NCBI GenBank assembly: GCA_016874735.1
Contig: VGTI01000013.1
Span: forward strand, 1 to 64,000
DNA: 64,000 nucleotides
Direction: 5' to 3'
From: Deltaproteobacteria bacterium
GTDB lineage: Bacteria; Bdellovibrionota_B; Oligoflexia; Oligoflexales; CAIYRB01
Shown: piece after piece, positions 22,632 to 31,422 of the stretch
Position numbering within the stretch: position 1 is the stretch's first letter
Layout of the letters: every line of letters begins with the position of its first letter
Made by a program: the position numbers and the translations under genes
The notes under the pieces: generated by a model
The model's database searches: none
What the model was told of the DNA's origin: nothing
The model's input: the letters and a program-made list of their open reading frames with translations, nothing else

Positions 22632-23975
22632 ATGACACTTGAGCGATCAGTAATCAATACGGCGGTGGCGGGTAAAAAACATCCCAGCCACTCTCATCTG
22701 CCAGAATGGCAGGCATTCAGCTTTGCTAGTGGCCAGTTTTTACTCCACATCCCGAGCTCTCATGTGCTTGAGGTTCCAGGCTATTTGGTGGCCCAGGTGC
22801 GCGGTGAGGTAAACGACCCAGCGGCCGCTGCCGAACTTGATGGCCTTGCCCAGGCGTTGCCGCGTCCCGTCAAGAAAAAGCCTGAACTCGACATAAGGGC
22901 GATCTCCCTTAATATGGCGCAAGGCTGCAATCTCAGGTGCACCTACTGCTTTGCTGGCGAGGGTGACTACGGCAGCAAGGGTATGATGAGTTTCGCCACG
23001 GCCAAGGCTGCCATCAGTCTCTTGGCTCAGGGCAAGAGCTCGTTTCACGTAGTTTTTTTCGGCGGCGAACCCATGCTCAATTTTGCGGTCATGGAGCAGG
23101 TAGTCAACTGGTGCGAAGCTGAGCAGCTACCGATCACCTTCTCTATGACCACCAACGGCACGCTCCTAACAGCCGAAAAAATGGCGTGGTTGAAGGCCAA
23201 GAAGTTTGCACTGAACTTGTCCTACGATGGCCCAGGCATGCATGCGAAACAGCGATTAAACAAGGACAGAGCTACGAACTCCGAGGCGCTCGTCGAGCGT
23301 AAAATTGCGGCCTTTTCCACTCAGCTTGCGGCGCTGCGTGATGTTAGGCTCAGAGCAACGGTCACGAAGGCGACCCTGCCATATGCAGAAGAAGCGCTGC
23401 TGGCAACATTGAACTCCAAGAACTTCAAGGTATTTCTGTCTCATCATGCGACAAGTGAACGTGGCGTTGAATTCGGTGACGATGACATTACCTACCTTGG
23501 TGACGTGCTTCGTCGCATCGTTGACCGCTTTATTGCGGCCGGTGATTTTGCGCGTCTCCTCAAGCTAGAAAACATAGAACAAGCGGTCCGCATGATTCAT
23601 CGCGGTAAGACCGGCGGTATGACATGTGGCGCCGGTGTGAACTACTTGACGGTATCTGTCTCGGGCGGTTTTTATCTCTGCCACCGGTTTAACGAGGACG
23701 AGAGCGAGCGCGTCGGTGGTATCACCGATGGTCTCTCCTATGACAAGTTGGCTGAAGTCTCGGCTTTCCGTTCGGCAGGTAAGGCCCCGTGCAACACATG
23801 TTGGATGCGTGAATGGTGCGCTGGCGGCTGTATGCATGAGCATAAGAGCGCCAGCGGGGATAAGTTTGCGATTGACCCCCGATTCTGTAGACTGCAAGCC
23901 ATCGAGATGATCGAGGCGATGCGTGTTTACACCACAATACTGGCGCGAGACCCTGCGTTGCTGGAGTCGATCTAG
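22632..23975 (+). CDS. Radical SAM/SPASM peptide maturase
   Basis: This 447-aa protein has GAGGTGG upstream of the ATG. The N-terminal 90 residues resemble the substrate-recognition region of QhpD/SCIFF-type maturases (FSFASGQFLLHIPSSHVLEV). The radical SAM cluster motif is GCNLRCTYCFAGEGDYG near residues 98-112, followed by VVFFGGEPMLNF and TTNGTLLT. The C-terminal SPASM domain has its auxiliary-cluster Cys in MTCGAGVNYL, FYLCHRF and CNTCWMREWCAGGCMHEH ... FCRL. Such enzymes install thioether or C-C crosslinks in ribosomal peptides. The gene is two bases from the first CHASE2 kinase gene, and a 52-aa peptide gene lies at the end of the cluster. Confidence 0.85.
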   Translation: MTLERSVINTAVAGKKHPSHSHLPEWQAFSFASGQFLLHIPSSHVLEVPGYLVAQVRGEVNDPAAAAELDGLAQALPRPVKKKPELDIRAISLNMAQGCNLRCTYCFAGEGDYGSKGMMSFATAKAAISLLAQGKSSFHVVFFGGEPMLNFAVMEQVVNWCEAEQLPITFSMTTNGTLLTAEKMAWLKAKKFALNLSYDGPGMHAKQRLNKDRATNSEALVERKIAAFSTQLAALRDVRLRATVTKATLPYAEEALLATLNSKNFKVFLSHHATSERGVEFGDDDITYLGDVLRRIVDRFIAAGDFARLLKLENIEQAVRMIHRGKTGGMTCGAGVNYLTVSVSGGFYLCHRFNEDESERVGGITDGLSYDKLAEVSAFRSAGKAPCNTCWMREWCAGGCMHEHKSASGDKFAIDPRFCRLQAIEMIEAMRVYTTILARDPALLESI

Positions 23976-23977
23976 GA

Positions 23978-25897
23978 ATGTCACGATCACTAAAATCAGT
24001 CGTCATCAGCGGGCTGTTTTTATCTGTGATCGCGTCATTGGTCTATGTGTTCTATGCAACTGAGCTCAGGTCGAGAACAGAAGACGAGCTTTACGATTTG
24101 CGGACACGCTTAGCACCGTCACTGCGCCCGAAGAACCCAGTGCTCTTGATAACCATCGATGATGGTGAGCCGCAGACTTCACTTGCTTTAGGGTCAATGC
24201 CGTGGCAGGCGCGGCCGATTCAGTCGCTGGAGGCAGAGAAAGTTATAAACCTGACCGAGCGACTCCTCAACAGTAAGGCTCGGATGATAGGTGTCATCTT
24301 GCCGCCGCAATTTGTCAGTTACGACGATCCCCATTTAGATAAGCTGGCTGCACTGGCCAAAGGTGACGAACGCATCTTTATTGGCGCTTTTGGTCATTCG
24401 AAAATTGCAGATGACGAGAGCGGCCGTGCTAGCAGGTTGCTTCTGACAGCTGCTGATAGCCTGTATCGCGCAGATATTAAACGTGACTTTAGGCGTGAGA
24501 CGATTCGTAAACTTTTAGTTAGAGAGCCTGATGACTATCCTCATATAGTCTACAGTATGGCAGAGCGTTTTAAATCAGGGGCAACTGCCAATAAGGATGC
24601 GCAGCAAACTGTGCTATCTCCGAATCGCGTTAATCATAGCGGCGACCCCCTCGTCATTGAGCTAAATTACGCGCATAAAGATGAACTAATACAGCTGACG
24701 GCAAGCTCCGTCATAAGTAATCCCGAACATGTGGACCTCACAGATTCGGTGATTCTCGTCGGTTATACCGGATTTAGACCGTTTACGTTCGATAGTCGCG
24801 AGGCCACCTACGTCAATACACCGTGGCAGCCAGAGGGTGCCGACCTCAGCAGCGGTATTCCGGTGCTACATCTGGCAGCTATTGGTCTCATAAATCTTAT
24901 TGACGACACCCATCTCAAGCGCGCTTCAAATTGGGTAAACCTGACACAAACCGTTTGTCTCTCACTCTTGGCGCTAGTCGCATGGAGTTTTGAAATCCGA
25001 ACCGCCAGTCTGATTTTTGTATGTAGCTGGGGGCTTTTGTTGATTGTACATGCAGCTCTTTTTTCCTATTTAAACCTTCATATTCCACTTGCGGACACGG
25101 CTCTTTGGTCTGCGCTCGCGACTGTTTGTGGTGCATTTTGGCGCCTGAGGGCAGATATTCAGCAGCGCGCTGGCAAGCTAGAAAAGCTTAGCTCGGATGC
25201 CGCACTTGCTGAGATTCAAGATAAATTTCTGAGTCGGTTTGCTGCTGAATTATTGCAGCTGAACGATCAGCTTTTAACGATTTTAAAATCTATGTCCAGT
25301 CCCATGACTGGGACAGCCGCTCGGGCTCTAGAAAAAGCTACTAGCAGTGCTGTTGAACTCCAAGATTACTTGGTCGGTATGCGACACGTTGGCTACCTAA
25401 ATCGTATGGATAACGTCAAACCCACCATGTCTGACGTAACCATCGGCGAGGTGATAGTGGAGGTTTTGCGGCTTTTTGAGCTTAGATCTCAGGAGGCGCA
25501 GGTGAGTTTTTTGGTTAGTCTAACTCCGGACGCCGAGGCCCGGGGTGACCGAACATTAATAGCGCAGATTCTCTATAATCTCGTAAGTAACGCGATAAAA
25601 TACTCGCCACGAGGGGGAGAAATTGAAGTAGAAGCAGTCCGGCAAAAGAGCCAGATCATCATGCGCGTCTCGGATCATGGTCCAGGTATCGATGCCGAAT
25701 TCCATGAGCGAATTTTTGAAAAATTTTACCGGATCAAAGATGAAATTGTTTACAAAAGTAAAGGGCATGGTCTTGGGCTGTATCTCAGCCGCTATTTCGC
25801 CAGGCAAATGAATGGTGATATCGAAGTCGTTTCATCTCCGGGATCTGGTGCCACTTTTATACTGCGGCTTTTGGCATCTAAGAAGGGGCGAGGATAA
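23978..25897 (+). CDS. CHASE2 sensor kinase-like protein A (ATPase intact, phospho-acceptor His missing)
   Basis: This 639-aa protein has an N-terminal membrane helix, then a periplasmic CHASE2 domain (DELYDLRTRLAP, PVLLITIDDGE, SMPWQARPIQSLEA) and three membrane helices near residues 320-400. The cytoplasmic part keeps the histidine-kinase ATPase boxes: N box QILYNLVSNAIKYSPRGG (about 530-547), SDHGPGIDAEFHERIFEKFY and KGHGLGLYLSRYFARQ. The helix where the phosphorylated His should sit reads DKFLSRFAAELLQLNDQL, with Ala in place of the SHELR-type His. It starts two bases after the radical SAM gene stop and is followed, nine bases later, by protein B, which has the opposite defect. Confidence 0.85.
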   Translation: MSRSLKSVVISGLFLSVIASLVYVFYATELRSRTEDELYDLRTRLAPSLRPKNPVLLITIDDGEPQTSLALGSMPWQARPIQSLEAEKVINLTERLLNSKARMIGVILPPQFVSYDDPHLDKLAALAKGDERIFIGAFGHSKIADDESGRASRLLLTAADSLYRADIKRDFRRETIRKLLVREPDDYPHIVYSMAERFKSGATANKDAQQTVLSPNRVNHSGDPLVIELNYAHKDELIQLTASSVISNPEHVDLTDSVILVGYTGFRPFTFDSREATYVNTPWQPEGADLSSGIPVLHLAAIGLINLIDDTHLKRASNWVNLTQTVCLSLLALVAWSFEIRTASLIFVCSWGLLLIVHAALFSYLNLHIPLADTALWSALATVCGAFWRLRADIQQRAGKLEKLSSDAALAEIQDKFLSRFAAELLQLNDQLLTILKSMSSPMTGTAARALEKATSSAVELQDYLVGMRHVGYLNRMDNVKPTMSDVTIGEVIVEVLRLFELRSQEAQVSFLVSLTPDAEARGDRTLIAQILYNLVSNAIKYSPRGGEIEVEAVRQKSQIIMRVSDHGPGIDAEFHERIFEKFYRIKDEIVYKSKGHGLGLYLSRYFARQMNGDIEVVSSPGSGATFILRLLASKKGRG

Positions 25898-25906
25898 TTC
25901 ACAGTC

Positions 25907-27868
25907 ATGAGCTCAAAGAACCGGCCGTTCATGATCGAAATATTGCGGAAACATTTATGGTGGCTTGATGTTCTTTATCCTTTGGCACTTGGTTTAGGAC
26001 TTTTTGCAGCTTTAAGTTATGTTGTTTATTCTGGGCCCAGACAATCGCGGCTTTCCCTTAGGCTAGAGAAGCGGTTGATGGAATACAGTTTGGTCAAGTC
26101 CAGTGGACGTCCTGCAGTCAATCCAGATATGGTGCGCATTATCACGCCACTCTGGCGATTAACTGACGAGGAACTTAGCACCGGTGATAAACTCATTGAG
26201 TTTTACGCCGATAGTATTGAGCACCTGAGTGCTGCTAAAATCCCGCTAGTTATCATCCATTGGCAAGCTGAGGTGCGCGGTAGTTACGATAATGTTTTTG
26301 ATAAGTTACAGAGAGTTGTAGCCTCTACCTCTGGCGAAACTAAAATATTCTTTGTCGCCTCGCCCCAGCAAATAGAGCAAATTCCCATCCTGCTACGACA
26401 AGATACGGTATGGCTTAACGATAGTCCTTGTGACGAGGCCAAAGAGATACAGATCGACTGCTCTTATGTGCCGGAATACGAGGGTTGGGTCGTTCAGAGG
26501 ATCTTCGAAAATGCGAATCCAGGGCTAGCGTCCACGGCTATCGGCTCCGGTTGGCTTAGTGATCAACTAGCGAATGGATTCACCGGCTACGTTCTCAATT
26601 TGACTCCGCCCCAGGGTGTCTCGCGGCAGCGATTAAGTAAACTCGGATCCATTAATGCATTGCCCAATAAACTTCGAGTGGCCATAGTTTCTGCGGAAAT
26701 TGAACGCCAACAAGAGGCACTTAAATCTGTTAATTATAGCGGTCTAAAGCAAAATCTCAGCGGTCTCAGGACCGTTTACGATCACGCTAGCAACGGTGTT
26801 GCTGAAACTATGCGCAGCACGCCCGTACAGGTGTTTTGGGCATTGATAGCGCAAATGCTAGTTGATGAAAGCATGGTTCAAATCCCTAAAGCAAAAGCCA
26901 TTATTTCTTGGACGGCAGTATACTGTATCGGTTTAGGAGCAGCCATGTTGTTCGGGCATGTGCTGACTGCAATTCTCGCGTTCTGCCTGTTTGCGTTGTT
27001 GGCGCCAAGTTTAAACGCTCTAACAATCCGGCTGTTTGGGTTTTATTGGCCGCTGTTCGATAGTTTGTATTTTGGAATCTTCGCTCTAATGGCAGCAGGT
27101 TTGGTGCGCCTATCGTGGATTACGATACAAAGATGGCGTCTGGAAGCTCAGATGAACCTTCATGCTCACGTGACGGATCTCAAGTCAAATTTTATTTCGC
27201 TTCTTAGCCACAATTTGAACACACCCGTTGCAAAAATGCAGGGCATGCTCGATGTCCTGAGGAAGACTGTCCAAAATATTCCTAAAGGCTCAACCTTAAA
27301 CGAAGCCGAAGCATTAGCCACTCAGTTAGAGCTAACGATACGTGGTGTTTTGATTGCCGCTGCCTTGGAAGAGGGTGCTTTAAGCGAAGCAGCACGCAGA
27401 CCTGATCATATCGTAGCAGAGCTAGCAGGTACCGCCACGAATACTCTGAGGCGTCTTGGTATTACGCTAATTATTCAACCAATCGTCGCCAAGGATGAGG
27501 CTCTGATTTCACTCCCGTTGTTGTTCGATCTAAGAGCTTTAAACGCTGCCTTGATTGCGTTGGCAGCACTCTTTTATCGGCGTGGTAGCGAGGGCGAAAT
27601 TATGGTCGCCGCAGCTTTGAGTCAGGATGACAGAGGTGTTGTTTTGACATGGGAGTTCCGCTCCCATGAACTGTTTCCGCCAGTGGCCGCGTTAGAGCAG
27701 CTGACGGCCACCAGTCCAAAACAGATCCGTAAAGTTGGAGGCACTGAATTTTTTGCTGAGGTTCTGGCGGTTTTCGTGAGGCTACTTATTGGGTGTTATG
27801 ATGGGACAGTTGAGGTGTTCTCAAAGAACCATGGTGGTTCCATAGAAATTAGTTTGCGTCCTAGGTAA
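25907..27868 (+). CDS. CHASE2 sensor protein B (H box present, ATPase degenerate)
   Basis: This 653-aa protein has the same topology as protein A: N-terminal helix (WWLDVLYPLALGLGLFAALS), a CHASE2-like periplasmic region of about 270 residues, and three membrane helices (residues about 325-405). The cytoplasmic H box is present: DLKSNFISLLSHNLNTPVAK near residues 423-442. The ATP-binding half has lost its N and G boxes. The N-box position reads DLRALNAALIALAALFYRRG, and no GxGxG segment exists. It probably receives phosphate from protein A in a heterodimer (inference). The gene ends 44 bp before a sigma-54-type promoter. Confidence 0.8.
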   Translation: MSSKNRPFMIEILRKHLWWLDVLYPLALGLGLFAALSYVVYSGPRQSRLSLRLEKRLMEYSLVKSSGRPAVNPDMVRIITPLWRLTDEELSTGDKLIEFYADSIEHLSAAKIPLVIIHWQAEVRGSYDNVFDKLQRVVASTSGETKIFFVASPQQIEQIPILLRQDTVWLNDSPCDEAKEIQIDCSYVPEYEGWVVQRIFENANPGLASTAIGSGWLSDQLANGFTGYVLNLTPPQGVSRQRLSKLGSINALPNKLRVAIVSAEIERQQEALKSVNYSGLKQNLSGLRTVYDHASNGVAETMRSTPVQVFWALIAQMLVDESMVQIPKAKAIISWTAVYCIGLGAAMLFGHVLTAILAFCLFALLAPSLNALTIRLFGFYWPLFDSLYFGIFALMAAGLVRLSWITIQRWRLEAQMNLHAHVTDLKSNFISLLSHNLNTPVAKMQGMLDVLRKTVQNIPKGSTLNEAEALATQLELTIRGVLIAAALEEGALSEAARRPDHIVAELAGTATNTLRRLGITLIIQPIVAKDEALISLPLLFDLRALNAALIALAALFYRRGSEGEIMVAAALSQDDRGVVLTWEFRSHELFPPVAALEQLTATSPKQIRKVGGTEFFAEVLAVFVRLLIGCYDGTVEVFSKNHGGSIEISLRPR

Positions 27869-28028: not shown

Positions 28029-28187
28029 ATGTATACTGATAAGACAGTAAGCGGTAAACAATTGCGACCAGAGACGCTGAGCCCCAAGGCTAAGGTTGTC
28101 AATAAGCCGGCCCACGCTGAAGTTACTCCGGACGCGAATGAAAATGACGCCGCAGCGGATATGTGTTTAGGGTCTAGAGACGTCTGA
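28029..28187 (+). CDS. 52-aa peptide, candidate substrate of the radical SAM maturase
   Basis: This small gene reads MYTDKTVSGKQLRPETLSPK at its start and ends NENDAAADMCLGSRDV. AGAGAGGTG precedes the ATG at suitable distance, and a sigma-54-type promoter lies 100 bp upstream. It has a single Cys nine residues from... the C-terminal region (position 45 or so), surrounded by Asp/Asn. A basic, leader-like first half and a short acidic Cys-containing end would suit a ribosomally made, post-translationally modified peptide. No signal peptide or membrane segment is present. The link to the maturase rests only on position and shape. It could instead be an unrelated small protein. Confidence 0.5.
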   Translation: MYTDKTVSGKQLRPETLSPKAKVVNKPAHAEVTPDANENDAAADMCLGSRDV

Positions 28188-28195
28188 CAACGTTG

Positions 28196-28911
28196 TTAGT
28201 TGCGGGTGCTTCTCGATACCTTGCGGCCGTTCAAGGCCTGTACTGGACGGGCATTGAAGGGTATTGAATGTGAGAATTGCGCCAACTGCCGGTCCGACAG
28301 CGGCAGAGGGTCGGTCATCACGTACCAATGGACGCCCTCGGTACACGGAGGGTGTGTAAGGGATCCCTCGTACTGATAGTATTTGCGCCGCTGCGGTAGG
28401 AGTTTCGTCGGATCAAGTGCAATTGGTTCCGAGGCATCATCCCCTGGCGCTGGGATACTCGACCAGATGTTCGTTAGAAAGGGATTTGTTGCTTCTCGCT
28501 CCATAAAAACTGCTAAGATCAGGATCTGGCCCTCCAGACTTTTATGAGTTAGCTGTATTTCCATATCGTATGGAGCTCCTACGATCTTGTGCTCGCTAGG
28601 TGCGTGGAAAACAATGGTGTCGAGATCGTAACGATCGCCGTCCACTTCTATGTAGTTGCCACTTTGAGTTCTCAATACAAGCTGGCCAGCATAGTTGGTG
28701 ACGATATTGTCACTGTCCCTGTAGTGAAAGCGGATTGGCAGGAGTTTTGAATTTGCTACCGGTCCATCGATATCAATCGGAGACTGACGGCGGCCGCGCG
28801 AGCAATTTTCGAACCGGCTACTTAGAGATCCCCAGCCGGTAGGTCCGGTACTACCTTGGTAGTTCCAGCGCGGGTCTGCTGTTTCATCGATGTGTGCCGT
28901 GTTTTTTTTTT
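28196..28911 (-). pseudogene. Alpha-carbonic-anhydrase-like domain, out of frame with its N-terminus and lacking two zinc ligands
   Basis: This frame encodes WNYQGSTGPTGWGSLSSRFE, RRQSPIDIDG, FHAPSEHKIVGAPYDMEIQL, SLTHPPCTEGVHWYVM and NARPVQALNGRKV, an almost complete alpha-carbonic anhydrase domain. It has no start codon of its own before an in-frame stop near 28911. It continues the His-rich gene at 28884-29423 if one base is lost from, or two are added to, the run of ten A (coding strand, 28902-28911). The zinc ligands are altered. The first His of QFHFH is Val (IVFH), the second is kept, and the His of the third site is Gln (MEIQL). Catalysis is therefore unlikely even if expressed. A binding role is possible. 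Confidence 0.7.
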
Positions 28912-29423
28912 AACTCGGGCTTGCTTGCCTTTGGCGGAGAGTGCTTCGTTCCATGATCCCCGTGTCCGCCATGATCACTATGCACTGCTTTGGTAGCCTC
29001 GTGTTCTACGGGTTTCTCATGATGCGAATCGTCATGGGTTTCGTGATCTTTGTGAGGCTCGTGCGTGTCTGCCGTATGCGGTTCATGACCGTGATCCGGG
29101 TCTTGGTGTGCATCGTGATGCGCGGCGCTATCATGCTTGTCTTCGTGCGAAGATTTGTCATGGTCCGCAGATTCTCCATGGCCCGTATCCTCATGGTGAG
29201 CACTTTCACCATGCTCGTCAGTGGTGGCGTGGTGCCCTTTTCCGTGATCGGAGTCACCATGGGAACTGCCGTGAGGCGTATCAGCAATTTCTTCATCGTC
29301 ATGGCCGTGTGCAGAGCCACCAGCAACTTTCACAACCCCGTATCCGACTCCGTAGGTGGCACCAGCAGCTGCACAAGCTATGATCCAGGCTAAAATTTGA
29401 TCCATACCTTTCTTCATTGCCAT
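28884..29423 (-). CDS. Exported His-rich protein, N-terminal part of the carbonic-anhydrase-like gene
   Basis: The start at 29423 has AGGAGG upstream. Residues 8-35 form a signal or anchor helix (QILAWIIACAAAGATYGVGY). Residues 36-165 hold more than 30 His among Asp, Glu, Ser and Gly (DHGHEPHTADTHEPHKDHET), a likely low-specificity zinc, nickel or copper binding stretch. The frame ends soon after a run of Lys encoded by ten A and stops at 28884, inside the carbonic-anhydrase-like frame. With a one-base change the joint protein would be about 408 residues: export signal, His-rich linker, anhydrase fold. Confidence 0.7.
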   Translation of the reverse strand: MAMKKGMDQILAWIIACAAAGATYGVGYGVVKVAGGSAHGHDDEEIADTPHGSSHGDSDHGKGHHATTDEHGESAHHEDTGHGESADHDKSSHEDKHDSAAHHDAHQDPDHGHEPHTADTHEPHKDHETHDDSHHEKPVEHEATKAVHSDHGGHGDHGTKHSPPKASKPELKKKHGTHR

Positions 29424-29628: not shown

Positions 29629-30423
29629 ATGAGCAAATTTGTTGGCAAGAGGATTTGGATCACCGGAGCATCGTCAGGAATCGGTGAGGCGTTGGCCCTC
29701 AGGTTAGACGAACTAGGCGCCAGTTTAATTCTGTCGTCTAGGGACAGCGAGAAGCTCAATGGGGTACTGAACTCGTGCAAGAATCCGGAGCGTCACAAAA
29801 TCCTTTTACTTGATTTAGAGAAATATCCAGAACTTCCGAAAATCGCAGAGGACGCTTGGCGAAATTATGGGCCTATTGATATTTTGGTAAACAATGCGGG
29901 AATATCACAACGTTATCTGGTGTGTGATGGGAACATAGATCTCGATGCCAAAATCATGAATGTAAATTTTTTCGGCACGATTGCTTTGACGAGACCTATC
30001 TTGCGAAAAATGTTGGAAGTAAACTCAGGCCAAGTGGCTGTTGTTTCAAGCGTCCTAGGTTTGTTCGGTATTCAATCTCGAAGTGCATACAGTGCCAGTA
30101 AACACGCACTGCGTGGATATTTCGAAAGTCTTAGGAACGAAATTGCAAAATCACCCGTGAAAATAACGATGATATATCCTGGGTACGTCAAGACAAATGT
30201 TTCTCGAAACGCTTTAACAGCAGATGGAGGTAGTTACGGCGTTGTTGACAAACAGCACAATAATGCGATGTCCGCGATGCAGTGCGCGGAAGAAATTATT
30301 ATAGCACTTGGGCAGAAAAAGCCGGACGTCGTTTTCGGTGGTCGGCTGGAGATGCTCAGCGTTGCAGTAGCTAAATACATGCCGAGAATTTTCAGGACTT
30401 TGTCAACACGGATTAATGTTTAG
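29629..30423 (+). CDS. Short-chain dehydrogenase/reductase (SDR)
   Basis: This 264-aa classical SDR has the nucleotide-binding motif WITGASSGIGEALALRL at residues 10-26, DILVNNAGISQRY, the catalytic Ser in VVSSVLGLFG and Tyr/Lys in SAYSASKHALRGYF, then YPGYVKTNVS. The closest pattern is the DHRS7-like group, acting on ketone or alcohol groups of lipids or steroids with NAD(P). Base composition is more AT-rich than in flanking genes. The gene is enclosed, together with a transposase, between two short inverted-repeat elements, suggesting acquisition by transfer. Its last 21 bases overlap the end of the convergent transposase gene. Confidence 0.85.
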   Translation: MSKFVGKRIWITGASSGIGEALALRLDELGASLILSSRDSEKLNGVLNSCKNPERHKILLLDLEKYPELPKIAEDAWRNYGPIDILVNNAGISQRYLVCDGNIDLDAKIMNVNFFGTIALTRPILRKMLEVNSGQVAVVSSVLGLFGIQSRSAYSASKHALRGYFESLRNEIAKSPVKITMIYPGYVKTNVSRNALTADGGSYGVVDKQHNNAMSAMQCAEEIIIALGQKKPDVVFGGRLEMLSVAVAKYMPRIFRTLSTRINV

Positions 30424-31344
30424 GTCAGCACTGCGCAAGCGAGAAACGTTGGGCATGGAGCATGATTTTTTGATGCTCATCAACTGTTTATTGTGCCACC
30501 ATGCATACAACGAAACTAAGTCTGCGAGTCTCTCTTTTCGTTTTGTGGTAGTCCACGTACGACGAGCTAAACGCTTAATCCGATCTCTGAACATGGCGCA
30601 GGTGTGGTTGAGCGCAAAAATAGGATCGTGACGCCCTCGCTTAAGTTCTCCTTGCCCGATTGATCTGCTTCTTCGCCCTTTGAATACTTTATGGCTCACA
30701 TTGTCACCGAAAACCAGTTTGACGCAGCGCGGATATCTTGAGCATTTGTCGGATTTCAGCACTTGGACATGGGGGCAAAGACGCCTGACTTCACTGAGTA
30801 CGCGAATCATACACTCTTTTCGTTGATCTGGACGGTAGCCGTATTTTTTTCGGGAAATTTTCGACAATTTTCCTGGACATGGCATGACAGCAACACTTGC
30901 CGCAATAATTAGTCGGGATCTTTCATCTACAGCGACAGCAATGGAAAGCGGCTTGCACTTACTGTGTTCAAAAGTTTCCATTTCGTCGAACTGCACTGTT
31001 GAAATTGGCGTTGATGCCTTATTGATCTCGGTGCTCGAAGTTGCTGCGGTCTCGCTCTGCGCTTGCCTACCGAGTCTGACCATTTTTCGTGCTACGGTTA
31101 TCGGGGAGCATTTCAGATGTCTGGCAATTCCTCGTTGAGAAACTCCCTCCATCAAGAGGCGCAGTACGCTTTGTGTGAGGTGAGGCTTGCGCTCACGATA
31201 AGTGAGCGTGGATGTCTGGTTTGAGAATTTCGAGCCGCAGACGCGACACAAGTATCTTTGGATAACTTTAATGCGACCGGTTTTTCTTTGGTAAAGACCG
31301 CAGCGCACCACCGATCGCGTATTGTCCCCACACTTTGGACACAT
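30403..31344 (-). CDS. IS1-like DDE transposase
   Basis: Start chosen at MCPKCGDNTRSVVRCG (31344), because GAGGAG precedes it. A longer frame to 31416 lacks this. The 313-aa protein has an InsA-like zinc ribbon (CPKCG ... RYLCRVCGSKF), a helix-turn-helix (GVSQRGIARHLKCSPITVAR), then catalytic-core segments VQFDEMETFEH, VLKSDKCSRYP and FRDRIKRLARRTWTTTKRKE, resembling IS1 InsB but fused in one frame. It lies immediately inside the inverted-repeat element at 31423-31570, whose ends it may recognise. IS boundaries of its own were not found. Confidence 0.7.
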   Translation of the reverse strand: MCPKCGDNTRSVVRCGLYQRKTGRIKVIQRYLCRVCGSKFSNQTSTLTYRERKPHLTQSVLRLLMEGVSQRGIARHLKCSPITVARKMVRLGRQAQSETAATSSTEINKASTPISTVQFDEMETFEHSKCKPLSIAVAVDERSRLIIAASVAVMPCPGKLSKISRKKYGYRPDQRKECMIRVLSEVRRLCPHVQVLKSDKCSRYPRCVKLVFGDNVSHKVFKGRRSRSIGQGELKRGRHDPIFALNHTCAMFRDRIKRLARRTWTTTKRKERLADLVSLYAWWHNKQLMSIKKSCSMPNVSRLRSADLNINPC

Positions 31345-31422
31345 AGTGGCTCCTCGTAACAGGAGCTGTAAAACTGCCACATCAAAAGAGTCATGTGAAA
31401 AGACATCAATGGACATCCACTA

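Follow-up and report, generated by a model that had tools for sequence, protein, structure and literature searches.

Histidine kinases are mostly homodimers. Few occur in nature in split form, and the majority of these belong to the chemotaxis type. Rv0600c and Rv0601c of Mycobacterium tuberculosis, an ATPase-bearing and a His-bearing kinase, divide His and ATPase between two proteins; unlike the pair described here (proteins A and B), they have a response regulator adjacent to them, and we know of no CHASE2 paralogy in that pair. Rv0600c and Rv0601c cooperate with TcrA (PMC9274095). In Rhodobacter sphaeroides, CheA4 phosphorylates CheA3 and neither autophosphorylates alone, and up to 1.7% of histidine kinases have been estimated to be possibly split and bifunctional (PMC3591291). 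Like A and B, CheA3 and CheA4 carry His and ATPase on two proteins (PMC3591291), but they are soluble, act in chemotaxis and carry P1 (HPt-type) and P5 domains, and they are not membrane CHASE2 paralogues; A and B gave no Pfam match to HPt-type P1 or CheW-like domains and do not qualify as a split CheA. The kinase Hik36/Hik43 of Synechocystis is likewise split over two genes, which differ from those of A-B in lying far apart and in encoding a split CheA with an HPt domain (PMC7656254). The closest working analogue of A-B is FasB/FasC of Streptococcus pyogenes, a heterodimer of two neighbouring kinase-like membrane proteins, in which FasC is proposed to be a pseudokinase with the functional His and FasB to supply the kinase domain (PMC12675982). 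FasB/FasC differ from A-B in having a six-helix sensor and an adjacent response regulator (FasA) and in having neither CHASE2 nor a radical SAM gene, and FasB, unlike A, retains a possible phospho-His. The statement in the initial annotation of our locus that split kinases are already known is thus correct (CheA3/CheA4, Hik36/Hik43 and FasB/FasC). GacS/RetS of Pseudomonas aeruginosa (PDB 6dk7, 7n0e) also form a kinase heterodimer, and among solved folds that of RetS comes closest to cytoplasmic B; here the difference is that RetS inhibits GacS and that both also homodimerise (PMC12675982).

The window (the whole stretch of 64,000 nucleotides that was analysed) comes from an uncultured Oligoflexales bacterium; it is part of a contig of 78 kb in a genome of 4.65 Mb, whose relatives are metagenome-assembled genomes (MAGs) of the order Oligoflexales. 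The operon has the order radical SAM/SPASM enzyme (22632..23975, + strand), A (23978..25897, +) and B (25907..27868, +); the coordinates of A and B were verified and give the claimed gap of nine bases. A gene for a 52-aa peptide (28029..28187, +) starts 160 bases after B. What is new here is that two paralogous CHASE2 proteins of the membrane have each undergone fixed losses that complement those of the other, that this pair is distributed through one order, and that it is partially linked to a radical SAM peptide operon.

Complementary residues in proteins A and B

Protein A consists of a CHASE2 sensor, a degenerate DHp without the His, and an intact HATPase domain, as judged by Pfam and a merged A/B alignment. 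In the window protein, CHASE2 (PF05226) was matched over residues 22-333 (24041..24976, +) with 48.1 bits against a cut-off of 26.3, and HATPase_c (PF02518) over residues 523-632 (25544..25873, +) with 98.7 bits against a cut-off of 26.4. There was no HisKA match in Pfam, and the phospho-acceptor position is taken by Ala423 (codon 25244..25246, +), which shares a column with His435 of B in the merged alignment. The nine N/G1/F/G2 residues checked there are all intact in 18/18 A proteins, i.e., the ATP-site Asn, Asp, Gly and Phe residues are present in every one. By Pfam, HATPase_c was found in 17/17 A proteins and HisKA in none. In the H-box column, eight of the 18 proteins have Ala and one has His; the others have S, F, D, V, R or K. 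The initial annotation had described A as keeping the N and G boxes with Ala in place of the acceptor His, and this is borne out by the ATP residues (18/18) and the loss of His (17/18). It had also held that an intact H-box elsewhere in A would speak against the idea; none is present, since no His is invariant across the A proteins and the sole His found in most of them sits in the membrane region. A His does occupy the H-box position in a single A orthologue (locus L055, genome G008), which is without the following Pro. At another locus (L042, genome G004) the A gene is broken over two overlapping frames, probably by a sequencing or assembly fault.

Protein B combines a divergent CHASE2-like sensor and a His-bearing DHp with a dead ATPase-like domain, according to Pfam, hhalign and a structural model. 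The HisKA match (PF00512, residues 426-488; 27182..27370, +) reached 24.3 bits, just below the cut-off of 26.9 (E 3.4e-5), and all 19 B proteins matched HisKA at E up to 0.1. No HATPase match was obtained by Pfam in the window protein or in any of the 19 (0/19), and in the merged alignment the ATP-site residues are essentially absent. In the B H-box (HNLNTP), the His, the Thr and the Pro located five residues after the His are invariant in 19/19 proteins, and the predicted phospho-acceptor is His435 (codon 27209..27211, +). The converse claim, that B has the His but no N or G boxes, thus also holds.

Every one of the 19 B proteins has Asn directly after the His, and none has an acidic residue there; of the 24 ordinary H-boxes surveyed, 23 have Glu and 1 has Asp in this place. 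An acidic residue beside the His helps phosphotransfer in HisKA kinases, and the Asn in B is therefore expected to weaken the normal chemistry, so that transfer to B may need the help of A or may proceed differently. An AlphaFold2 model of cytoplasmic B (pLDDT 84.5) shows a pair of DHp helices followed by an ATPase-like domain. Its closest solved folds in the PDB are the RetS kinase region, followed by other histidine kinases, and the matches include a RetS structure with the GacS DHp. On the model, the PDB matches and the residue table, the C-terminal domain of B (27374..27865, +) is not lost but is predicted to retain a degenerate ATPase-like fold without the N, G1 and G2 residues.

The sensor regions were said to share CHASE2 and a three-helix topology. 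CHASE2 was confirmed for A; window B had no CHASE2 match in Pfam (weak matches occur in 3/19 B proteins, best E 0.0055), and its sensor was recognized as a homologue of the CHASE2 region of A by hhalign (399 columns, P 99.5). The topology was upheld, as in the model of the B sensor one helix leads into a periplasmic domain, after which come three helices, the same layout as in A. A search for solved relatives of the B sensor found none (best E 0.11). Each of the 19 B proteins has Cys175 and Cys185 (26429..26461, +), which are not conserved in A; they possibly form a periplasmic disulfide specific to the B sensor.

The complementary residues in 18-19 homologues and the matching domain calls, together with a B model closest to RetS, a protein that itself forms kinase heterodimers, lead us to regard it as probable that A and B each supply half of a single membrane sensor histidine kinase, which is active only when they form an A:B heterodimer and in which A phosphorylates B. 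The case is weakened by the Asn after the His, by the L055 A protein with its His, and by the contig, as no response regulator was found on its 78 kb (36 matches lie elsewhere in the genome). The same resemblance to RetS and its GacS-bound structure, the Asn and the lack of a response regulator beside A-B would also fit a role in which A and B bind a third, complete kinase and tune its activity up or down, the complementary losses being a consequence. We consider this unlikely, because pure binding would need neither the His, Thr and Pro kept in 19/19 B proteins nor the ATP-site residues kept in 18/18 A proteins, and because A and B are always paired with each other and not with a third kinase gene.

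Descent, selection and pairing

When the A and B profiles were compared, 510 columns were aligned (P 99.5, E 2.6e-23). The two H-boxes coincide in this alignment, which takes in the sensor, the membrane helices and the H-box and reaches into the ATPase region; this identifies A and B as paralogues. In three species pairs, dN/dS was 0.06-0.23 for the A and B genes alike. The ATPase-like domain of B evolves somewhat faster; in one of the pairs its dN/dS reaches 0.42. Distances among A proteins correlate with those among B proteins (0.966), which partly reflects shared phylogeny. By these sequence comparisons, A and B are paralogous over their full length, and both are subject to purifying selection. 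The catalytic residues missing from each protein and the faster domain of B could be taken as signs that both are degenerating kinases without a joint function, but this is highly improbable: both whole genes are under purifying selection in the three species pairs, their frames are intact, and the invariance of the functional residues across several families already contradicts decay. An intact CHASE2 kinase that could be the direct ancestor was sought within the order and none was found; the other CHASE2 proteins examined matched neither the A ATPase profile nor the B DHp profile.

Among 43 genomes of the order Oligoflexales, A was found in 19 and full-length or nearly full-length B in 19. 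Eighteen contain both, adjacent and always as A then B, and 23 contain neither. The exceptions are at contig ends: in G014 only B is present, itself cut by the contig end, and in G040 only A is present, its gene running off a contig of 4,926 bases. No A orthologue without B, the other finding named in advance as counting against the pair, therefore occurs among the 43 genomes save at such ends. The co-occurrence has a Fisher p of 5e-12, which ignores relatedness and is descriptive only. The two genes overlap by 4 bases at 11/18 loci, which suggests coupled translation. Scores with the B profile drop from 537 bits to 46 bits for the next-best proteins, which are mostly A itself, and among 58 genomes of the phylum full-length B is confined to Oligoflexales. 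A scan of 84,980 species detected 17 related loci, all in MAGs labelled as Oligoflexales, Bdellovibrio-like or Proteobacteria, and none of the related loci was found on a plasmid. At five loci of one family (L049-L053, f8), A-B directly follow a gene that by eye is recJ-like, not a radical SAM gene.

The radical SAM enzyme and the candidate peptide

The enzyme encoded upstream of A matches PF04055 with 54 bits and is likely a peptide maturase. Its best NCBIfam matches are PapB (213.3 bits, cut-off 340) and QhpD (211 bits), both under the cut-off, so that it does not reach the PapB ranthipeptide maturase equivalog. The CxxxCxxC and SPASM cysteines are conserved in 11 relatives. Full-length relatives occur in 12 genomes, each adjoining A and usually overlapping it or lying a few bases away; in G040 the gene is in two pieces with an internal stop. 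The expected co-occurrence of the pair with this gene stood in one direction only: the enzyme is never found without A-B, and it is absent from 7 A-B genomes, so that the kinase pair is either of greater age or of wider spread than the peptide system.

The 52-aa candidate precursor has a KVVNKP motif and a single Cys46, located five residues before Asp51 near the C-terminus. Counting the window, its gene lies 3' of B in 8 genomes (one copy is cut by a contig end), and no relative was found at E < 0.05 in genomes without the A-B pair. In the alignment with the relatives from 7 further genomes the ends are conserved and an N-x-P motif is invariant, and the seven complete copies share an invariant Cys followed 4-5 residues later by Asp or Glu. 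NCBIfam gave no meaningful match to the peptide. Despite a radical SAM gene and uncut contigs, no peptide was found in G007 and G028, and there was no convincing candidate at the radical SAM loci L046 and L054.

Enzymes of the PapB kind join Cys to Asp/Glu and also accept other spacings (PMC9413430). The PapB/PapA ranthipeptide system resembles the locus in that PapB represents the best-matching radical SAM/SPASM family and that the peptide contains Cys and Asp (PMC9413430); it differs in that PapA has six CX3D units versus one CX4D near the C-terminus here, in that the enzyme here scores under the cut-off, and in the sensor pair of our locus. It is conceivable, if doubtful, that the enzyme closes a Cys-Asp thioether ring in the peptide and that the product is the periplasmic signal for the split CHASE2 A:B kinase; the ring product as a signal is a guess, and the proposal adds to the split-kinase reading and does not replace it. 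In its favor are the radical SAM gene beside A in 12/12 genomes that have it, the restriction of the peptide gene to genomes with the pair, the conserved C-terminal Cys with its acidic partner, and the spacing-tolerant PapB-like chemistry. Against it are the 7 A-B genomes without the enzyme, the two genomes without a detectable peptide, the sub-threshold scores for PapB and QhpD, and the immediate neighborhood, where no exporter or peptidase was seen beside the genes; the peptide could instead be a regulated product or be unrelated to sensing. The literature searched contained no published link between CHASE2 and radical SAM proteins.

Farther downstream in the window, the ORFs at 28196-28675 and 28884-29423 (both - strand) match one 393-aa ORF in L043 that has a His-rich N-terminal part and a carbonic anhydrase-like part, and the window copy may be frame-broken. 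The ORF at 30403-31416 (-) has a Cys-rich, zinc-finger-like start and by eye resembles an insertion-sequence transposase.

Proposed mechanism and its meaning

The sequence comparisons establish the complementary residues, the common descent of A and B, their constant pairing and gene order, and purifying selection; on that basis we infer an obligate heterodimer, A-to-B phosphorylation and an orphan regulator. The A-B pair would have originated by tandem duplication followed by complementary loss. Both proteins would be membrane-spanning, each with three helices and a periplasmic sensor of the CHASE2 type, and they would pair via their DHp helices. Upon a signal, the ATPase domain of A would phosphorylate His435 of B, and from B the phosphate would go on to a response regulator whose gene lies elsewhere, the ATPase-like domain of B being a dead structural or regulatory remnant. 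This split-kinase mechanism is likely but unproven.

The A-B pair, maintained across several families, offers a clean example from nature of duplication with complementary degeneration. It makes testable how an obligate heterodimeric kinase is constructed, why the ATPase-like fold of B is retained, and how phosphate is transferred with Asn beside the His, and the radical SAM and peptide genes offer a concrete lead to the possible signal.
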